Assembly: GCA_036004685.1 (NCBI GenBank)
Contig: DASYRE010000054.1
Coordinates: 124,001 to 188,000 of the forward strand
Length of the DNA: 64,000 bases
Direction of reading: 5' to 3'
Source: Candidatus Polarisedimenticolia bacterium
GTDB lineage: Bacteria; Acidobacteriota; Polarisedimenticolia; Gp22-AA2; AA152
In this document: one piece after another, positions 29,327 through 40,530 of the stretch
How the letters are laid out: each line of letters starts with the position of its first letter
Position numbering within the stretch: the first letter of the stretch is position 1
The notes under the pieces: model-generated
Database searches by the model: none
What the model was told of the DNA's origin: nothing
Seen by the model: only the letters and a program-made list of their open reading frames with translations
Program-made: the position numbers and the translations under genes

Positions 29327-29416
29327 TGGCGGAGAGAGTGGGATTCGAACCCACGGTGAGGTTACCCCCACACACGCTTTCCAAGCGTGCTCCTTAAGCC
29401 ACTCGGACATCTCTCC
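29327..29416 (-). tRNA. tRNA-Ser (anticodon GGA)
   Basis: A 90-nt class II tRNA with a long variable arm. Acceptor GGAGAGA pairs with TCTCTCC; the anticodon stem CACGC/GCGTG encloses TTGGAAA (anticodon GGA); the T arm GGGTTCGAATCCC is perfect; CCA is encoded. It reads UCC and UCU codons. Confidence 0.97.
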
Positions 29417-30844: not shown

Positions 30845-32686
30845 CTAAGGTGTCACAGCCGGAGCGAGCATCAGGCGCCGCGCGTCGCGCGGCGGGATCG
30901 TCCCGAAGCCGAGGAGCCGCTCGTTGAAGCTCTTCAGGGAGAACTTCTCTCCCTCGCGCGCCTTCACGTCGGTCAGCAGATCGTTGAGCTCGGTGAACCC
31001 CACGAAGTAGGTGGAGAGCTGGGTGGCGGTGATCTTGGCGCGCCGCAGCTTCCCCTTGGCTTCCACCTCCTCTTGGAACCCGAGCCGGGTCATCAGGTCC
31101 ATGGCCCAGCGGTCGGTCTCCTCCTCGGACATGCCGGCGGTGTGCATCTTCGAGTCGAGCAGGGCGTTCATCGGGACCCGGAGGTCGAATTTCTTGTGGA
31201 CCAGGTAGTTCGCCGGATCCCCCGCGGCGAAGCCGTTGGTGAACATTTCCTCTTCGGCGAGGACCGCCCATCCTTCGGCGAAGGTGCCGGAAGCGAAGAC
31301 TTTCTTGTAAATCGTCGCCATGGGGGATTTCAGCGCGTACCAGGCCTGCACGTAGTGCCCGGGAAAGGCCTCGTGGATGATGAGACTCTGCAACCCGTAG
31401 TCGTTGTACTCGCGGAAGAACGACTCCGCCACTCGGGCGTCCTCTTCGGGGCTGCCGCCGCGAGGGACGGAGGAGACCCAGAACGACTTCTTCAGATCGG
31501 GCTCGAAGGGGGGCGCCGAATTGAAGAAGGCGACGGCGACCCCGTCCATGAAGGCCGGCGTCGGCTCCACGACGAAGTTGTCGGTTTCCGGCGGCAGGCC
31601 GATGATGTCGCTCTTGCGGATGAAACCCTTGATCTTCGGGATCCACTTCTCCTTCACGTCGGCGAACAGGGTGTCGGGCTTCGAATGGCTCTCCGCGAGC
31701 TTCGCCAGCGTTTCCTTGACCACGACGTTGATGAGATCGTCGCCGGTTTCCTGGTGCTTGTGATCGGGATACATCTTGTCGTGCAGCGGCTGGGCGACCG
31801 CGAGCATCTCCTCCCGATCCTTCTTCAGCTTCTCCTCGGCCCGGCGGGTGATCTCCTCCGGAGTCAGATCGGAGGCGAGGGCATAGCGGAGCTTCCGGGT
31901 CCAGAGCTCCTTGCCCAGCCGCCAGTCGCCCTTGGAGCGCGGCAGGAGGTCGCTCTCCAGCCATTTCTGGTAGTCGCGCAGCGCCCCGATCACCTTGGCG
32001 CTCTCGCGATGCAGGTCCTCCCGCAGGGCGGGGACCTTCCCGGAGAGCGGCGGAAGGGTCTTCTCGAAGAACTCGATGTTCCCCGGGTTCAGGACCAGGC
32101 AGAACTTCGTCTGGATCTCCGCCGGGTTCTTGAGGTTCTTCTTGGCCTGCTCGAGGAAGGCGGGGATCTTCTTCATCCTTCCCATCAGGCTCGCCATCCG
32201 CTCGGGGAACTCCTTCGCGTCGGGCGCCACCTGAGTCACGAACAGCGTGCTGTTGCCGAGCACGTCGTTGTAGAAGAGGGGATCGCGATCGAAGGGGCGC
32301 AGCGTCGTCAGCGTGAAGAGGTTCGACTCGCAGTCCTGCACCAGGAGATCGCGGTCGACCTGGGCGCTGAGGCCGAGCTTCGATCGATCCACCGCCGCCA
32401 GATCCTTCTGCAGGCGCTTGAAGGTGTCGGTCATCCTCTTGATCCCGGCGGCGCTGAAATCCTCCAGGTCGGCGTCATAGCGATGGTAGCCGTTGACCGA
32501 GGCCTGGGCCGGGAACAGCCGCAGCGTCTCGTCGAGGTAGCGCTGCGCCACGGTGTAGAACTTCGCGTCGCCGGGGGCCGGCTCGGGCCCCGCCCCGAAG
32601 GTCAGGGCGTGGATCGCGGCGAGCGCGCCGGCGGCGAGGATGCCGGAGAGGACGACGGCCGGGAACGAGGGTAGGGGGCGCAACAC
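30845..32686 (-). CDS. DUF885 family zinc metallopeptidase-like protein
   Basis: A 613-residue exported protein of the DUF885 family. An N-terminal signal or anchor helix (about 8-25) is followed by a large helical domain; the zinc-site motif is HEAFPGH (in LIIHEAFPGHYVQ, about residues 437-443) with downstream Glu in FAEGWAVLAEE that could be the third ligand. Related proteins behave as M3/M32-like carboxypeptidases or dipeptidases, so a periplasmic peptidase is likely. The start is GTG with AGGAG 9 nt upstream. Its stop codon lies only about 15 bp before the fluoride riboswitch. Confidence 0.88.
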   Translation of the reverse strand: MLRPLPSFPAVVLSGILAAGALAAIHALTFGAGPEPAPGDAKFYTVAQRYLDETLRLFPAQASVNGYHRYDADLEDFSAAGIKRMTDTFKRLQKDLAAVDRSKLGLSAQVDRDLLVQDCESNLFTLTTLRPFDRDPLFYNDVLGNSTLFVTQVAPDAKEFPERMASLMGRMKKIPAFLEQAKKNLKNPAEIQTKFCLVLNPGNIEFFEKTLPPLSGKVPALREDLHRESAKVIGALRDYQKWLESDLLPRSKGDWRLGKELWTRKLRYALASDLTPEEITRRAEEKLKKDREEMLAVAQPLHDKMYPDHKHQETGDDLINVVVKETLAKLAESHSKPDTLFADVKEKWIPKIKGFIRKSDIIGLPPETDNFVVEPTPAFMDGVAVAFFNSAPPFEPDLKKSFWVSSVPRGGSPEEDARVAESFFREYNDYGLQSLIIHEAFPGHYVQAWYALKSPMATIYKKVFASGTFAEGWAVLAEEEMFTNGFAAGDPANYLVHKKFDLRVPMNALLDSKMHTAGMSEEETDRWAMDLMTRLGFQEEVEAKGKLRRAKITATQLSTYFVGFTELNDLLTDVKAREGEKFSLKSFNERLLGFGTIPPRDARRLMLAPAVTP

Positions 32687-32720: not shown

Positions 32721-32814
32721 TGGCGGAGAGGGTGGGATTCGAACCCACGTGGCGCTGTTTAGGCGCCAACCCGCTTTCGAGGCGGGCCCGTTACGACCAC
32801 TTCGGTACCTCTCC
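32721..32814 (-). tRNA. tRNA-Ser (anticodon CGA)
   Basis: A 94-nt class II tRNA. Acceptor GGAGAGG pairs with CCTCTCC; the anticodon stem CCCGC/GCGGG encloses CTCGAAA (anticodon CGA); long variable arm TTGGCGCC..GGCGCCA type; T arm GGGTTCGAATCCC; encoded CCA. Reads UCG. Confidence 0.97.
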
Positions 32815-33118: not shown

Positions 33119-33511
33119 GTGGTGTCGCGAATCCAGCAGCTACTCGGACAGGCCAGGGTGGTGCGCCGTCCATGCGATCTGGACCTGCTGACTTTCCTGC
33201 TTCGGCACCCTCGGGCGCTCCTCACCAGCAAAAGCATCGCGCGGTTTCTTGGGTACAGCGCCAAAGAGGTGGCGGCCTCCCTGGAGGCGCTCATCGAGGG
33301 CGGGTTCCTGGAGCGTTCTCCGACACCAGCCCATGCGGCGCGATTGTACGTCCTGGCGATGCCGGACCCGCACGGGAAATCGCTCCTCAGCCTGCTGAAA
33401 ATCGCTTCGACTTCCCACGGCCGCCAGCGGGTGATTCGAGCGCTCAAGAAACCGGCGGCCCCGGCGCGCGCCCTTCCAGAAGCGCGCGGCTCCCTCGGGA
33501 GCGTCCGGTGA
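33119..33511 (+). CDS. Winged-helix DNA-binding protein, KaiC cassette
   Basis: A 130-residue protein whose middle is a winged helix-turn-helix: LDLLTFLLRHP, then SKSIARFLGYSAKEVAASLEAL as helix-turn-helix and IEGGFLERSP as the first strand of the wing (about residues 22-75). The C-terminal third is basic. It has no sensor domain. It starts 22 bp before the KaiC-like gene and shares its transcript, so it is the likely DNA-binding output or autoregulator of the cassette. GTG start with GGGAG about 7 nt upstream. Confidence 0.78.
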   Translation: MVSRIQQLLGQARVVRRPCDLDLLTFLLRHPRALLTSKSIARFLGYSAKEVAASLEALIEGGFLERSPTPAHAARLYVLAMPDPHGKSLLSLLKIASTSHGRQRVIRALKKPAAPARALPEARGSLGSVR

Positions 33512-33533
33512 GCCTCCGACTCCAGGAGTTGCG

Positions 33534-35048
33534 ATGAAGGGACCCGGCCTGATTCGGACCGGAATCACCGGATTGGATGCCATCCTGGGAGGCGGCATTC
33601 CACGCGGCAACATCATCCTGCTCGAAGGCGCCATCGGAACCGGCAAGACGACGCTTGGCGTCGAGATGATCTATCGCGGCGCCAGCGAGTTCGACGAGCC
33701 CGGGATTATCGTTCTGTTCGAGATTTCTCCGGACAAGCTCACGCGCGACGCGGCCCGCCTGGGGTGGGACCTGCAGGAGCTCGAGCGGCGCGGGCGATTG
33801 AAGATCGTGTTCACGACGCGCGACGTCTTCCGGCAGGAAATGCAGCAGGCGGACAGCCTTCTCCTCGAGCAGGCCGCCTCCATCGGCGCGACGCGCATGT
33901 TCATCGACGGAGTGGCGCGCCTGAGAGACGACCGGCAGGATTCACGCGATCTGTTCCACGTGCTCGTCGAAGGCTTGCAGCGCGAGGGCTTGACCGCCGT
34001 GATGGCCGTGGAGGCCTCGATCCTCAACGGGGGGTTTCCTCCGGGGCTGGAGGAGGAGTCCATCGCGGATACCGTCATCCGCCTGCGGACCGAGGAGACA
34101 TACCGCGCCGTGTTCCGGTCCATCGAGATCGTGAAGTCGCGCGGCCAGCCGTTCCAGATGGGACTTCACAGCTTCCGCATCGTGGACGGGCAGGGGCTGC
34201 AGGTCTATCGCCGGGTGCAAGCGCCCCGGGCGCCGAGCCGCGAGAGCGAAGGGACCTTCGATCCCACGAAGCGAGTCACGACCGGGACTCCGGGCCTCGA
34301 TCCGGTGGTCAACGGCGGATTCATGCTCGGCAGCACCACGGTGGTCGCGGGCATCTCGGGCGTCGGTAAGAGCGTCATGGGATTGCAGTACATCGGGGAG
34401 GGGGCGCGCCGCGGCGAAAACAGCCTGATGGTGACGCTCGACGAGCAGTATGCGCAGGTTCTCCGAAACGCCAAGAGCATCGGGATCGATCTCGAGCCTG
34501 CCATCAAGAAAGGCATCGTCCGGGTCGTCTACGAGCCGCCTCAAGAAATAGAGATCGATCACCACTTTCACCAGATCGAGCAGTACGTCGAGCAGTTCAA
34601 GCCGACGCGCGTCCTGATCGACAGCCTCTCGACCTATGGCTCCGCGCTGGGCACCAGCGGCCGGATCTTTCGCGACTTCTTTCACGCCGTCGTCGCCCTG
34701 ATGAAAGAGCATCAGATCGCCGCGGTCTACAACCATGAAAACCCCGAAATGCTCGGGATGTCGTCCATGATGGGAGATTTCGCGATGAGCTCGCTGGTGG
34801 ACAACATCATCCTGATGAACTGGGTGGAGCTGGGGGATACGTTCCGCCTCGGCCTGACGGTGGCCAAGATGCGGGCGAATCCCGTCGTCCGCACGACCCA
34901 CGAGTGCGAAATCGTGGACCGGCGGGGACTGTCTGTGCTGCCGCGTGAGATGCACGTTCCTCCAAGCGCCTTCTCTTCGTATTACAGCCTTCTGTCCCGC
35001 AATCCGGAGCGCCGCCCCCGGCGTGACGATGCCGAAAAAGCGAGGTGA
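33534..35048 (+). CDS. KaiC-like double-domain RecA-type ATPase
   Basis: A 504-residue protein with two KaiC domains, like the cyanobacterial clock ATPase (519 residues). Walker A motifs are at 32-39 (GAIGTGKT) and 273-280 (GISGVGKS). The catalytic Glu pair of KaiC is reduced to Phe62-Glu63-Ile in the first domain and is Asp303-Glu304 in the second. The region equivalent to the KaiC phosphosites reads Ser419-Ser420 before VDNIILMNWVE, in place of Ser431-Thr432, while Thr426 corresponds to Gly. AGGAG precedes the ATG. No kaiA or kaiB is present; it lies between a winged-helix gene and a hybrid kinase, which suggests a signalling switch, not a full oscillator. Confidence 0.93.
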   Translation: MKGPGLIRTGITGLDAILGGGIPRGNIILLEGAIGTGKTTLGVEMIYRGASEFDEPGIIVLFEISPDKLTRDAARLGWDLQELERRGRLKIVFTTRDVFRQEMQQADSLLLEQAASIGATRMFIDGVARLRDDRQDSRDLFHVLVEGLQREGLTAVMAVEASILNGGFPPGLEEESIADTVIRLRTEETYRAVFRSIEIVKSRGQPFQMGLHSFRIVDGQGLQVYRRVQAPRAPSRESEGTFDPTKRVTTGTPGLDPVVNGGFMLGSTTVVAGISGVGKSVMGLQYIGEGARRGENSLMVTLDEQYAQVLRNAKSIGIDLEPAIKKGIVRVVYEPPQEIEIDHHFHQIEQYVEQFKPTRVLIDSLSTYGSALGTSGRIFRDFFHAVVALMKEHQIAAVYNHENPEMLGMSSMMGDFAMSSLVDNIILMNWVELGDTFRLGLTVAKMRANPVVRTTHECEIVDRRGLSVLPREMHVPPSAFSSYYSLLSRNPERRPRRDDAEKAR

Positions 35049-35052
35049 GTCC

Positions 35053-36705
35053 GTGTCGTCCGCACCGGATGAGCAACCCCTCGCATCCGGAGTGTGGCTC
35101 CCGGCGCTGGAAAAATTCGCCGCCGTCACCGGATTGACCGTCCAGCTCTACGATGCGGGCGGGAAGCTCGCCTTCGGTCCCATCGGCCCTAATCCCCTGT
35201 TTCAGTTGCTGAAGGGATACGAGCCCGGCATCTTCGAGGAATGCGCGCGGCGCTGTCTGGAACAGGACGTCGATCGCTCGCCCATCGCCCTCCGAACCGC
35301 CCAAGGATTAGGCGTCGTCGGAGTCTGTCTGAAGCGCGGGGAGAAACCCCGTGCCTCCATCGTCGGCGGGTACGTGCTCGTGGATTTCCTGAACCAGTTC
35401 GCGATCCAGGAATTGGCTCGGGAATCCGGAGTGGCTTTTGCGCGGGCCTGGGAGGTTTCACGCCGGGAACGGCCGGTGCCGGAGCGCCGCTTGGTGCTGG
35501 TCGGAGAGCTCTTGCGAATCCTCGGAGACGCGCTTCTGCGAGAGGACCATCGCATCAGTCTCGATGAAGAAACGATGAGGCTCAGCGAGAAGACGGCGGT
35601 CGCGAAAGACGACTTCCTGGCCGTGCTCTCCCATGAATTGCGCTCGCCGCTCACCCCGATCATCGCCTGGGCCCACATCCTGAAGGCCGGAGGGGATCCG
35701 CTTCGGGCGGCGGACGTGATCGAGCGCAACGCCCTGCTTCAGGCCCGCCTCGTCGAGGACCTCCTGGACGTGAACCAAGTCATGCGAGGCAAGACACCGT
35801 TGGACCTCCAGCCGCTCGATATCCGAGGAGCTCTGGGCTCCGCCGTGGCCGCGATCGCGCAGGCTGCGGAACAAAAGAGGATTCGGCTGGAGTTCTCCGG
35901 AGGGGAGAAACCCGTGCTCGTCCGCGCCGACGCGGGCAGGCTCCAGCAGATCCTCACGAACGTTCTCTCCAACGCTCTGAAATTCACTCCTCCGACCGGC
36001 AGCATCCACGTGCTCCTCGCCCGGGAAGCGGACCAGGCGGTCGTGACGATCACCGACACGGGCAAGGGAATCGCCGCCGAGTTCCTGCCGTTCGTTTTCG
36101 ATCTGTTTCGCCAACAGGAAGAAGGCACGCGGCGGCAATACTCGGGGCTCGGCGCCGGACTCGCCATCGTCCGGCGGCTGGTCGAGGCTCATCAAGGGAA
36201 GGTCGCCGTTTCGAGCCCCGGAATGGGACTGGGCACGAGCGTGCGGCTGGTACTGCCCCTCGCGGTGGGGACGGAGACGGCGAGCGCCATCATGCACGAC
36301 ACGGAGGTCTCCTCTTCGGCACGCTTGGACAACCTCAGTATCCTCCTGGTCGAGGATGCCGAGGACGTGCGGGAGGCGACGGAACTGGTCTTGAAGGGTC
36401 TCGGAGCCGCCGTCCGGAGCGCCCCCAACGGCCAGAAAGGCCTGGCTCTGGCGGCCAGCAGTTATTTCGACATCGTGCTGTGCGATTTGCGCATGCCCGA
36501 CATGGACGGATTCGAGTTCATCCGGAAGCTTCACCGGAGCTCGCGTCTAGTCTACTTGCCCGTCGTGGCCCTGACCGCGCTCGCCAGCCAAGCAGACCAT
36601 GAGCGGACCCGAGATGCAGGCTTCCTGGCTCACATCGACAAACCCTTCAACGCAGCTCGGATCGTGCAGGCCGTAACCGGCGCTCTGGCCGCGCAGACGC
36701 ACTAA
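35053..36705 (+). CDS. PocR-domain hybrid histidine kinase
   Basis: A 550-residue cytosolic sensor kinase. Order: PocR-type sensory domain (about 10-160, LPALEKFAAVTGLTVQLYD to RASIVGGYVL), HisKA with His194 in LSHELRSPLTPI, HATPase_c (about 295-415; NVLSNALKF, DTGKGI, SGLGAGLAIV) and a receiver domain (about 430-545) with phospho-acceptor Asp478 in LCDLRMPD. No membrane segment. GTG 35053 with GAGGTGA upstream is chosen; an ATG at 35029 would overlap the KaiC gene by 20 bp. The coding regions are 4 bp apart, so KaiC and kinase are translationally coupled. PocR domains sense small hydrophobic or hydroxylated molecules. Confidence 0.9.
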   Translation: MSSAPDEQPLASGVWLPALEKFAAVTGLTVQLYDAGGKLAFGPIGPNPLFQLLKGYEPGIFEECARRCLEQDVDRSPIALRTAQGLGVVGVCLKRGEKPRASIVGGYVLVDFLNQFAIQELARESGVAFARAWEVSRRERPVPERRLVLVGELLRILGDALLREDHRISLDEETMRLSEKTAVAKDDFLAVLSHELRSPLTPIIAWAHILKAGGDPLRAADVIERNALLQARLVEDLLDVNQVMRGKTPLDLQPLDIRGALGSAVAAIAQAAEQKRIRLEFSGGEKPVLVRADAGRLQQILTNVLSNALKFTPPTGSIHVLLAREADQAVVTITDTGKGIAAEFLPFVFDLFRQQEEGTRRQYSGLGAGLAIVRRLVEAHQGKVAVSSPGMGLGTSVRLVLPLAVGTETASAIMHDTEVSSSARLDNLSILLVEDAEDVREATELVLKGLGAAVRSAPNGQKGLALAASSYFDIVLCDLRMPDMDGFEFIRKLHRSSRLVYLPVVALTALASQADHERTRDAGFLAHIDKPFNAARIVQAVTGALAAQTH

Positions 36706-36740: not shown

Positions 36741-39700
36741 TCAGGGACACGGGGGGATCGCTGCATCCCGGCCGGCGCCGTAGGTGCCGATCCCACAGGA
36801 GTTGCGAGCCCGGGCGAGGTACCAGTAGGTGGTGCTCGCGGCAGGAGCGGCTCGCGAGTCGGGGAAGCTGTTTGGGCCGGAGGGCTGGAGACACGACGCG
36901 GCGGACAGACCCGTCGAGCCGGGAGGACTCGTGAACGTGCCCCCCACCAGATCATAAATGGTCTCGGATCCCGCGGGCGTGCTCTGGGAGGTCCACGTGA
37001 CGGTCGTCGGGTTTCCAGTGAGAACGGCCAAGCCTGAGACCTCCGACGGAACCCCCCAAACTTGTGGATCCGTGTCGAGGCAATCGCCGCCCACGGAGAC
37101 GAACCCCGGGAGTGGGATCGACTCGCAGGTGGTCTGCGCCGTCTGCGGGTCTCCGAAGTGATCCAGATCCCGATCAAGGTAGTAGATATAGTAAGTCCCG
37201 CATTGCCGGCAGTAACGCCCCCCCGTCCCGAGAGGACCCTGATTGAAGCCTCCCCAGACGAGCATTTCGGTGCCCGCCCAGACGGCCCTAGAATCGTATC
37301 GAGGGTACGGTAGGTTCGATCCCGTCCCGGTGGGCGTCCAAGTGTCGTTCGACGGATTGTAACGCCCGCCGGTGTTCAACGCATTGGGGCTGGAGTACCC
37401 TCCCCAGACAATCATCTCGCCGTTCCCCCATACCGCGGTGTGAGACAGTCGACCGGCCGGTACCCCAGTTCCCGTACCTGTAGGATTCCAAGTGTTCGAG
37501 GAGGGATTGTAGCGGCCCCCCGTGTTGCTCGCGGGCCCCGAGCTCCCCCAGACGATCACTTCGGAGCCGGTCCAGACCGCCGTGTGTCCATCGGGGCTGG
37601 AGGGAGCGCCGGACGTGCTGACGGCGGCCCATGAATCGGAGCCCGGATCGTACCGCCCGCCGGTCGTCTCCGGCGTTCCGCTTCCGCTCCCGCCCCAGAC
37701 GAACATCCTGTTTCCGGTCCAGGTCGCGGTGTGGCCGGAACGGGCGCTAGGAAGGTTTGCCCCGACGCCGGTCGGAACCCATCCGTCCGAGGCGGGACTG
37801 TAGCGGCCTCCGGAATTCACGGGCGATGGAGAAGAATTGGTCCCTCCCCAGACGATCATCTCCGTCCCGGTCCAGATGGCGGAGTGGCCGACGCGAGCCA
37901 CGGGAAGGTTCGTCCCGGCTCCCGTGGGGAACCACGAGTCGCTGGTCGGGTTGTAGCGCCCTCCCGAGCTCAGTCTCGTTCCGAAGGTGTCCATGCCGCC
38001 CCAGACGATCATCTCGGTGCCAGTCCACACCTCAGTCTGAAAGGTCCGGCCTTCCGGGACGGCGCCTGGCGCGCTGTTCGTGGCGCTCCACGCGTCGGTC
38101 GCCGGCACGTAGCGCCCGCCGGTGCTGACGTAGTTGCCACCGGTAGCTGCTCCTCCCCACACGATCATCTCGGACCCTGTCCAGATTGCGGAATGATTGA
38201 ACCGAGGCGTGGGAGAAGGAGCCCGGCTCGTCGGAACCCAGCTGTCGCTGGCCGGGTCGTACCGGCCGCCTGAATCGAATACGGTGGTGCCGCTGCCGCC
38301 CCAGACGATCATCTCGGTGCCGGTCCAGACCCCGGTGTGCTTATCCCGCGAGGCGGGCGCGCCCGTCAGGTTCGTCGTGACGTAGGTGTCGCTGGAAGGG
38401 TCGTACCGGAATCCGAGATTCGTGGGGCCTGGGTTGGGAGGGGAGCTCGAATAGCCGCCCCAGACGATCATCCTGGAACCGGTCCAGACGGCGGCGTGGC
38501 TCACGTCAGAATACAGGGGTGTGTTCAGGGTGCTCCAGGTGTCGGAGCCCGGGTTATAGCGGGCGCCGCCGATCGGGTCCCCCGCTTGGGCGGTTCCCCC
38601 GAAAATGATCATCTGGGTCCCCGTCCACACAGCCGTGTGATTGAATCGTGCCGAGGGCAGGTTGACCCCCGTGCTCGTGGTGCTCCAGGTGTTGGTGCTC
38701 GGGACGTAACGACCGCCCGTGTTGAGCTCGGTGATGTCGATCCCTCCCCAAACGATCATCTCGGAGCCCGTCCAGACAGCCGAATGGGAACGCCTCCGTC
38801 CGGGCGGTCCCGTACCGGCGAAAATGCCGATCCAAGTGTCGCTCGAGGGATCGTACCTCCCCCCATCATTCAGCCTGGCCCCACCATATCCTCCCCAGAC
38901 GATCATCTCGGAGCCGGTCCAGACGGCGGTGTGGTCCATTCGGACGGTCGGGGCGATGCCCGCTGTGCTATTCGTGGCGGTCCAGGTGTCGGTCGACGGA
39001 TCGTATCTTCCCCCGGTGTTCAGGAAGCTCGCGCCGGGGCCGGCGCCTCCCCAGACAATCATCCGCGTGCCCGTCCAGATCGCCGTGTGATCTATGCGCG
39101 CCGTGGGCGCATTGAGGGGATTCATCGGCGTCCAAGTGTCGGTCGCAGGGTTGTAACGGAGGCCGGAGTTCAGCAGCGCTGAATTGACGTCTTCCCCCCC
39201 CCATATCAGCATCTCACTGCCGGTCCAAACCGCAGCGTGCAGGAATCGGGCATTCGGCCCAAAGGCGATCGGCGTCCAGGTATCGTCCGCACAGGTCGGG
39301 GAATCCACCGCCACGGTTTGAACGTCTTCTTCCTCGGGCGAGAGATCCGCATCGAGACTGCGACGCTCCTGGCTCCACCAGGTTTCGAAGGGCGTCTTCC
39401 TCCAGCTGAGAGCCCCCACCCGCATCGAATCGGCGTCCTGCGCGATCACCGCCTTCGCAAAAAAGGAGTTCTCGTCCTCTTGAAGAGGGCCGAATCGTCC
39501 CTGCGGCAGTTCGGCGAGATTGGCTGGCCGCTGCTGAGCGGCCGGTGCCGGATCGAGGCCCATCTCGAGCCACGTGCTCTGGACCTGGGTCTCGTATTCC
39601 TCGGGATCCAACGAGATCTCCTTGCCTTTGGCGGTGAAGTCTCCAGGATCCCGGCCCGTGGGGCGCGACCGCCAGGTGACCTCATGATACCCGGCGCCGT

Positions 39701-40292
39701 CCGGCGGCTCCGCGCTCAGAGCACGATGCCGGGCCAGAGCCTGCTGGGCTTCTGCGCGCAGGGGACCATGCACGCGGTCATCGAAGGAGTACCAGTTCCT
39801 GAACAGCCGGTCCGCCAGGATCGGACGCGCGAGACATTCGGCGATGAGGAACGGGTCATTGCGCAGGGCCGCGAAAACTTCGCGCAGCACTTCCGGCTGC
39901 CGGCTGTTCTTGGCCATCCGCCCCATCTCGGAGTGCAGCTGCGTGGCGATCAGCGGGCGGCCCCAGAGCTTCTCGAGGGCGTTCGATTTCTTCAGGTATT
40001 CGGTGACTCTCTCACGAATCACCGAGTCGGGCAGGACCTCTTCGAGAGCCGGCTTCGGGCCCGGGTTCTCCTTGGGCCAGATCCGGTGGCGCCAAAAGAC
40101 TTCCTCGATCGCCTTCTGGGCGGCAACCCGCGCATCGAAGGAAAGGACGCGACGGCTCGCTTCTTCTTTCGGTGGATTGAGAGACGCTGCGCCGCTGCCC
40201 TCGAGGGCCGGGAGCGTAAGCAAGAGCGCCGTCAGCCAACCGATGAGCCAGCGGATGAGAGGGAAGAGAAGGGAGTGCCTCTCGAGCTGCAT
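36741..40292 (-). CDS. Large secreted protein with 14 kelch-type repeats
   Basis: A 1183-residue exported protein. After a signal/anchor helix (about 10-33) comes a helical N-terminal domain (45-340) of unknown type. From about 345 to 1020 there are 14 kelch-like repeats of 45-50 residues built on the pattern H-x-A-V-W-T-G-x-E-M-I-V-W-G-G followed by G-G-R-Y-x-P-x-S-D-T-W; 14 blades would fit two seven-bladed propellers. The C-terminus has a D-x-D-x-D-x-x-G metal-loop segment (YLDRDLDHFGD) and an Ig/FN3-like end. ATG 40292 follows GGAGG. The repeats are similar to one another but not identical at DNA level. Role unknown; carbohydrate or cell-surface binding is plausible. Confidence 0.87.
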   Translation of the reverse strand: MQLERHSLLFPLIRWLIGWLTALLLTLPALEGSGAASLNPPKEEASRRVLSFDARVAAQKAIEEVFWRHRIWPKENPGPKPALEEVLPDSVIRERVTEYLKKSNALEKLWGRPLIATQLHSEMGRMAKNSRQPEVLREVFAALRNDPFLIAECLARPILADRLFRNWYSFDDRVHGPLRAEAQQALARHRALSAEPPDGAGYHEVTWRSRPTGRDPGDFTAKGKEISLDPEEYETQVQSTWLEMGLDPAPAAQQRPANLAELPQGRFGPLQEDENSFFAKAVIAQDADSMRVGALSWRKTPFETWWSQERRSLDADLSPEEEDVQTVAVDSPTCADDTWTPIAFGPNARFLHAAVWTGSEMLIWGGEDVNSALLNSGLRYNPATDTWTPMNPLNAPTARIDHTAIWTGTRMIVWGGAGPGASFLNTGGRYDPSTDTWTATNSTAGIAPTVRMDHTAVWTGSEMIVWGGYGGARLNDGGRYDPSSDTWIGIFAGTGPPGRRRSHSAVWTGSEMIVWGGIDITELNTGGRYVPSTNTWSTTSTGVNLPSARFNHTAVWTGTQMIIFGGTAQAGDPIGGARYNPGSDTWSTLNTPLYSDVSHAAVWTGSRMIVWGGYSSSPPNPGPTNLGFRYDPSSDTYVTTNLTGAPASRDKHTGVWTGTEMIVWGGSGTTVFDSGGRYDPASDSWVPTSRAPSPTPRFNHSAIWTGSEMIVWGGAATGGNYVSTGGRYVPATDAWSATNSAPGAVPEGRTFQTEVWTGTEMIVWGGMDTFGTRLSSGGRYNPTSDSWFPTGAGTNLPVARVGHSAIWTGTEMIVWGGTNSSPSPVNSGGRYSPASDGWVPTGVGANLPSARSGHTATWTGNRMFVWGGSGSGTPETTGGRYDPGSDSWAAVSTSGAPSSPDGHTAVWTGSEVIVWGSSGPASNTGGRYNPSSNTWNPTGTGTGVPAGRLSHTAVWGNGEMIVWGGYSSPNALNTGGRYNPSNDTWTPTGTGSNLPYPRYDSRAVWAGTEMLVWGGFNQGPLGTGGRYCRQCGTYYIYYLDRDLDHFGDPQTAQTTCESIPLPGFVSVGGDCLDTDPQVWGVPSEVSGLAVLTGNPTTVTWTSQSTPAGSETIYDLVGGTFTSPPGSTGLSAASCLQPSGPNSFPDSRAAPAASTTYWYLARARNSCGIGTYGAGRDAAIPPCP

Positions 40293-40530
40293 TAGAACCT
40301 CCACTGACAGCCGGACGCCCGGGGCCGGGTTCCTCTTTGCATGGGGGGATTGAGCTGGTCCGAACCTACTCCTCGGCGACCGATCCTGTCAAGAGTTGGA
40401 AGCTGGAACGCCTGCTGCTTACCGTGCTCCAAGCGCCCGGCACTCAGGCGCGGATTGATCTGCACCGCACCGAACGCCCAGGAGAGTCGCCGGAGATCGC
40501 GGATCGCCGCGACGGCGCGCGGTGATTCCG

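Follow-up and report, generated by a model that had tools for sequence, protein, structure and literature searches.

The window analyzed here, a 64,000-nucleotide stretch of contig DASYRE010000054.1 from a Candidatus Polarisedimenticolia bacterium (Acidobacteriota), carries a compact three-gene cassette built around KaiC. A winged helix-turn-helix (wHTH) gene, a double-domain KaiC gene and a gene for a PocR-domain hybrid histidine kinase follow one another in the same direction, as a first-pass annotation of the window had described. We found the same gene order in uncultured bacteria whose loci bear the labels of at least five phyla, which is far beyond chance; the trio is inherited as one compact unit. 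Within this unit, wHTH and KaiC form a near-invariant core, to which the PocR domain adds a third constant part; the kinase class, the PAS and GAF inserts and the receiver domain (REC) vary, and this division into fixed and exchangeable parts is what is new here. KaiC seems here to have become part of a second kind of switch. Specifically, we propose a dedicated KaiC switch, independent of KaiA and KaiB, in which the wHTH protein would serve KaiC as its core partner for DNA binding and the PocR domain would couple KaiC to interchangeable kinase outputs, a reading that we give an even chance of being right.

Inheritance of the wHTH, KaiC and PocR-kinase genes

All three open reading frames (ORFs) lie on the plus strand. 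The wHTH gene (33119-33511) encodes a 130-aa MarR/ArsR-like winged-helix protein with two C-terminal helices, the KaiC gene (33534-35048) a protein of 504 aa in which the KaiC domain occurs twice (PF06745 E = 9.8e-87), and the third gene (35029 or 35053 to 36705) a hybrid histidine kinase with the Pfam architecture PocR-HisKA-HATPase_c-REC. The PocR-type N-terminal domain of this kinase (35053-35532) is the sole part of it kept across cassettes. The first-pass annotation had reported gaps of 22 and 4 bp; the first stands, and the second holds only with the GTG start at 35053, since from the ATG at 35029 the gene would overlap KaiC by 20 bp. Because the third gene begins at -17 or -20 in several of the window's nearest cassette relatives, the ATG is at least as likely. 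Across the cassette loci, start and stop pairs mostly overlap or lie at most about 30 bp apart, which suggests translational coupling. This spacing is what argues for the single transcript that had been assumed; our promoter and terminator scans of the cassette strand gave no signal above shuffles.

To define the KaiC subfamily, we took the window KaiC as the query for a scan of 84,980 species genomes. As exact peptide patterns were used, the scan finds close relatives only and its count is a lower bound: at least 31 loci, with 64-73% identity to the window KaiC, labelled as Acidobacteria, Nitrospira, Gemmatimonadetes, Rokubacteria, Chloroflexi, Betaproteobacteria and "Cyanobacteria." We dropped the last label, since the record concerned (L058, JAIEMQ010000034.1) appears identical to a genome placed in the window's own phylum, Acidobacteriota (G191), and the public label looks wrong; labels of single metagenome-assembled genomes (MAGs) are therefore unreliable to lean on. 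Another locus, L050, corresponds to a carrier genome labelled Candidatus Sulfopaludibacter (G406; Acidobacteriota). The next-best KaiCs in the carrier genomes fall to about 32% identity, so that the window KaiC and its relatives form a discrete subfamily. In a tree that included these paralogues and solved KaiCs, built with a quick method, the cassette KaiCs formed one clade (Shimodaira-Hasegawa-like approximate likelihood ratio test support 100) on a stem branch of about 2 changes per site. The nearest relatives of the window genome lack this KaiC; what they have is either KaiCs about 32% identical to it or no comparable protein. As copies labelled Nitrospira, Gemmatimonadota and Chloroflexi are nested among those of Acidobacteriota on the KaiC tree, the pattern fits horizontal transfer.

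Conserved co-occurrence in the same order was the check that the first-pass annotation had set for itself, and it came out in its favor. The same wHTH gene lies directly upstream of KaiC in 27 of the 28 loci with enough upstream sequence, the sole locus without it being one whose KaiC is shortened (L056). Directly downstream of KaiC, a PocR protein is found in 23 of the 28 loci with enough downstream sequence, one of them truncated (L049). An all-against-all comparison of neighbors across the 31 loci found no other broadly common conserved gene. Co-occurrence is also strict at the level of genomes: the wHTH profile (A2) matched 25 times across 21 carrier genomes, 24 times next to a cassette KaiC and once at a contig end, and the PocR profile (A1) matched 20 times, 19 times next to KaiC and once at a contig start. 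Among 396 Acidobacteriota genomes, 3 have both KaiC and wHTH, and 2 of these also have PocR; in the third, the contig ends 105 bp past the KaiC match. The remaining 393 genomes had no match to any of the three. Over a deep divergence (mean identity 43-54%), the PocR and wHTH subfamilies keep their specificity for this KaiC, and pairwise distances co-vary between KaiC and PocR (r = 0.63), KaiC and wHTH (r = 0.71) and wHTH and PocR (r = 0.77; 0/5000 permutations for each). Since KaiC relatives regularly adjoin wHTH and PocR genes, gene order and co-occurrence argue well for the idea that the three proteins act as one unit.

The wHTH-KaiC pair is the tighter one and persists where the PocR kinase is missing, in Rokubacteria and one Chloroflexi. 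Two Rokubacteria genomes have two KaiC copies each, one with and one apparently without a PocR kinase (G408, and G409 as judged from contig ends). In L051 the wHTH and KaiC are fused in one 625-aa ORF, seen in a single MAG. The Chloroflexi KaiC without a PocR kinase (L057:1383-3303) is followed by genes for a complex I/hydrogenase-like 49-kDa subunit and an Fe-S protein. At a further locus, the remnant of a second cassette, with a decayed KaiC and a PocR-HisKA_3 kinase, lies directly upstream of an intact wHTH-KaiC pair (L048:3393-5129); it is probably a tandem duplication with decay.

The PocR domain and its interchangeable kinases

The PocR domain of the window kinase matched PF10114 with 24.0 bits (cut-off 23.9), and the relatives that matched scored 18.0-39.9 bits. 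Cassette PocR domains form a divergent clade that keeps CxxxC. CHxGL, which we take to be the conserved Cys/His motif of PocR linked to its predicted sensing role, is absent from all aligned cassette members; a better-scoring PocR protein from another locus (L098, genome G048) has CHVGL. The ligand-gated switch proposed by the first-pass annotation drew on the name PocR. With CHxGL lost in this clade, sensing of a PocR-type ligand is no more than a possibility, and the domain may serve for docking instead. An AlphaFold (AF2) model of the domain (predicted local distance difference test score, pLDDT, 88.3) gave weak PAS-, GAF- and IclR-effector-like Foldseek matches, none at E ≤ 0.001, and a KaiB thioredoxin-like fold was not seen in this model or its matches. 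A search of PDB sequences with the PocR profile returned nothing at E < 0.09, and we did not read its chance-level thioredoxin matches as a sign of kinship with KaiB. The N-terminal KaiB-like thioredoxin fold of SasA-type kinases is thus not found in the window kinase, which has the PF10114 match instead.

We then read the architecture of the third gene with Pfam, and PocR came first in each case. Behind it, HisKA and HATPase are followed by REC in the window, L046 and L053 and lack REC in L042, L043, L056 and L065. Inserts precede the HisKA transmitter in L040 (PAS-PAS-HisKA), L038 (GAF-HisKA) and L062 (PAS-PAS-HisKA-REC), and a HisKA_3 transmitter stands in L048 (directly behind PocR), L036 (PAS-HisKA_3), L045 (PAS-HisKA_3-REC) and L037 (PAS/GAF/PAS-HisKA_3). 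On the KaiC tree, this distribution means that the kinase class changed at least 2 times, REC at least 3 times and the inserts at least 6 times. As output architectures are swapped behind a constant PocR, it is the PocR domain and not the transmitter that goes with KaiC; of the hybrid kinase that had been named as a partner, the PocR domain is conserved and the transmitter is exchanged. HisKA and HisKA_3 kinases usually serve different classes of response regulators, so the swap looks like a rewiring of output. The window kinase has an intact H-box (SHELRSPL), intact N and G boxes (NVLSNALKF, DTGKGI and GLGAGLAI) and the Asp and Lys of the receiver (DLRMPD and DKPF). No 19-residue stretch in the wHTH protein, KaiC or kinase reaches the hydropathy of a membrane helix, and the window kinase is predicted to be soluble. 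At one locus (L044:7532-9603), PocR-PAS and HATPase-REC lie in two consecutive ORFs 11 bp apart, either by a frameshift or by a natural split.

KaiC, its proposed DNA-binding partner and related systems

The window KaiC matched PF06745 with 290.6 bits in 2 stretches. Its two P-loops (GAIGTGKT, residues 32-39, and GISGVGKS, residues 273-280) have invariant key Gly and Lys residues, and it keeps the CI glutamate E63 as well as K201xR203 and K445xR447; the second CI glutamate is replaced, mostly by Val. The catalytic acidic pair of CII, D303-E304, is present in 32/32 cassette KaiCs. Ser419-Ser420 aligns with the clock phosphosites S431/T432 and is likewise invariant (32/32), the second residue being Ser and not Thr; cyanobacterial KaiC2 also has Ser-Ser at this site (PMC5520375). 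With these active-site and phosphosite residues retained, the cassette KaiC is plausibly an active ATPase that can be phosphorylated. Membership in the circadian clock family is not supported, and we claim no clock: the cassette KaiC ends before the KaiA-binding C-terminal tail and widely misses the cut-offs of the circadian equivalogs TIGR02655 (210.8 vs 546.25 bits) and NF006799 (274 vs 408 bits). The wHTH protein has a weak match to Pfam MarR_2 (28.6 bits, cut-off 27), and its AF2 model (pLDDT 85.6) has its best Foldseek matches in MarR and ArsR proteins (E about 3e-3, none at E ≤ 0.001). A MarR/ArsR-like winged-helix fold is thus predicted, and the protein would be the DNA-binding partner at the core of the unit with KaiC.

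We found neither KaiA nor KaiB within the window cassette, and no KaiB near any cassette in 22 carrier genomes. The first-pass annotation is right on this point for the cassette but not for the genome. KaiB is present in 7/22 carrier genomes, the window genome included, always beside a different KaiC; the other 15/22 have the cassette and no KaiB. The window genome (3.84 Mb, 62 contigs) has a separate kaiC-kaiB cluster on another contig (C43:13745-15776), followed by a PAS-HisKA kinase (whole cluster L094, C43:13529-17125), and this KaiC groups apart from the cassette KaiC on the tree. On a further contig, a second KaiC type overlaps a downstream HisKA-HATPase-REC hybrid kinase by 11 bp (the pair at C31:164244-167343; L095:1745-4844). 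In 5/5 genomes (the window genome and L106-L109), the kinases directly behind this KaiC type share a conserved N-terminal domain of their own, about 150 aa long, which has no Pfam match and no solved homologue and is unrelated to PocR by profile comparison; a weak likeness to the end of a receiver domain hints at a pseudo-receiver. It thus seems that distinct KaiC subfamilies come with kinase N-terminal domains of their own, and this parallel supports reading such domains as the part of the kinase that faces KaiC.

The cassette shares with the cyanobacterial KaiABC-SasA system a double-domain KaiC, a kinase with a non-catalytic N-terminal domain and a separate DNA-binding output. It differs in that its KaiC belongs to a deep clade of its own (about 30% identical to solved KaiCs), KaiA and KaiB are absent, the kinase N-terminal domain is PocR-type and not KaiB-like as in SasA, and the DNA-binding protein, a wHTH, has no receiver; all three genes lie in one cluster. 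KaiC2 of cyanobacteria, Legionella and Rhodopseudomonas and other KaiB-linked KaiCs likewise lack KaiA, and cyanobacterial KaiC2 shares the Ser-Ser site; they are linked to KaiB, however, and the window genome keeps its cluster of this kind (that on C43) separate. Archaeal KaiC-like ATPases, which have been described as hubs of signal transduction (Makarova et al. 2017, as cited in PMC5847659), are also KaiC-family ATPases linked to two-component parts. The cassette differs from them in being bacterial and in having a fixed three-gene order and a double-domain KaiC with intact active sites that is strictly paired with a single wHTH and a single PocR subfamily. With the PocR family (PF10114) the cassette domain shares a marginal match over most of its length and a position N-terminal to HisKA, whereas its clade is divergent and self-contained, lacks the Cys/His motif and in the searched genomes occurs only next to KaiC. 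The C31-type pairs also have a kinase directly after KaiC whose N-terminal domain tracks the KaiC subfamily, but they belong to another KaiC clade with an unrelated N-terminal domain and have no wHTH gene in front in the window genome. In open-access papers, the only work joining KaiC and PocR was an archaeal two-component census, and we found none on the cassette, though an earlier description elsewhere is possible. The role of KaiC outside cyanobacteria, where KaiA and often KaiB are missing, is an open question (PMC6627678, PMC11832031). The cassette offers a clean unit for it, with three genes, strict pairing and active-site residues kept; its natural domain swaps point to the PocR domain as the likely KaiC contact, and a general rule suggests itself by which each KaiC subfamily has a dedicated kinase N-terminal domain.

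Proposed mechanism, alternatives and flanking genes

We infer a scheme in which KaiC would be an ATP-driven hexamer, with the state of CI and CII and phosphorylation at Ser-Ser as the switch. This state would be relayed to the wHTH protein, which would bind DNA, probably including its own promoter, and would also reach the histidine kinase by way of the PocR domain fused to it. That domain would be a docking or sensing interface, perhaps with a ligand, in the place of the KaiB-like domain of SasA. The kinase would phosphorylate lineage-specific response regulators, for which reason the transmitter could be exchanged without disturbing the connection between KaiC, PocR and wHTH. Signaling in the opposite direction, with a signal through PocR resetting KaiC, is possible. 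Taken further, the cassette may represent a distinct class of bacterial KaiC systems, with an active hexamer that needs neither KaiA nor KaiB, its own wHTH protein and exchangeable kinases joined through a PocR-derived docking domain replacing KaiB/SasA; we advance this tentatively and with some doubt.

Several observations weigh against the proposed switch. T426, which is used in KaiC dephosphorylation, is not conserved in cassette KaiCs. We searched upstream of the wHTH gene at 27 loci for a shared operator, using spaced palindromes and shared k-mers, and found nothing convincing in the non-coding part; the most widely shared k-mers fall in coding sequence. Autoregulation is therefore unsupported. 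Five of the 28 judged loci have KaiC or wHTH-KaiC without a PocR kinase (Rokubacteria L054, L055, L059 and L060; Chloroflexi L057), so the kinase is not essential. Finally, genes that are transferred jointly would show correlated distances even if their products did not interact.

This last point belongs to a broader alternative in which the three genes form a mobile cassette that is transferred together while its products work separately, with, for example, the wHTH protein only repressing the operon and the kinase serving another pathway. The patchy spread (3 of 396 genomes in the phylum) and the labels from other phyla nested among Acidobacteriota suit this view as well. We consider it quite unlikely, however, as no other neighbor is kept, the wHTH and PocR subfamilies are found away from KaiC only at contig ends, and their specificity to this KaiC spans a deep divergence. 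It is somewhat unlikely that the PocR kinase is instead the input, as in the ligand-gated switch of the first-pass annotation, sensing a small molecule and resetting or gating KaiC with the wHTH regulator as the only output. PocR is a family of sensory domains, an invariant sensor domain with PAS and GAF added behind it would suit an input protein, and wHTH-KaiC is the tightest pair. Against this, neither KaiC nor the wHTH protein has a receiver to accept phosphate from HisKA or HisKA_3, kinases of different classes would all need to act on the same KaiC, and this PocR clade has lost CHxGL. A timer free of KaiA and KaiB, in which Ser-Ser phosphorylation drives an hourglass or diurnal rhythm and the PocR protein replaces KaiB, seems very improbable to us. 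Catalytic and both phosphosite residues are kept and other bacteria reportedly have KaiC-KaiB timers that lack KaiA (PMC4794148, PMC5520375), but the scores lie far under the NCBI circadian-KaiC cut-offs, T426 and the KaiA-binding tail are missing, and the PocR model is not a KaiB fold.

We also considered anti-phage defense and rejected it: KaiC matched mad8 only in part, over the ATPase fold, and TRIP13 marginally, and the wHTH protein and kinase had no match. The cassette is flanked by genes on the minus strand. Two tRNA-Ser genes (GGA, CGA) lie about 3.4 kb apart at 29327-29416 and 32721-32814, the second directly before the cassette and next to a gene for a DUF885 protein (30845-32686). 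We rejected the tRNA as an integration site, since among the relatives only the decayed L049 has a tRNA nearby. On the other side, convergent with the cassette, is the gene for an 1187-aa Kelch-repeat protein with an N-terminal hydrophobic stretch (36741-40304).

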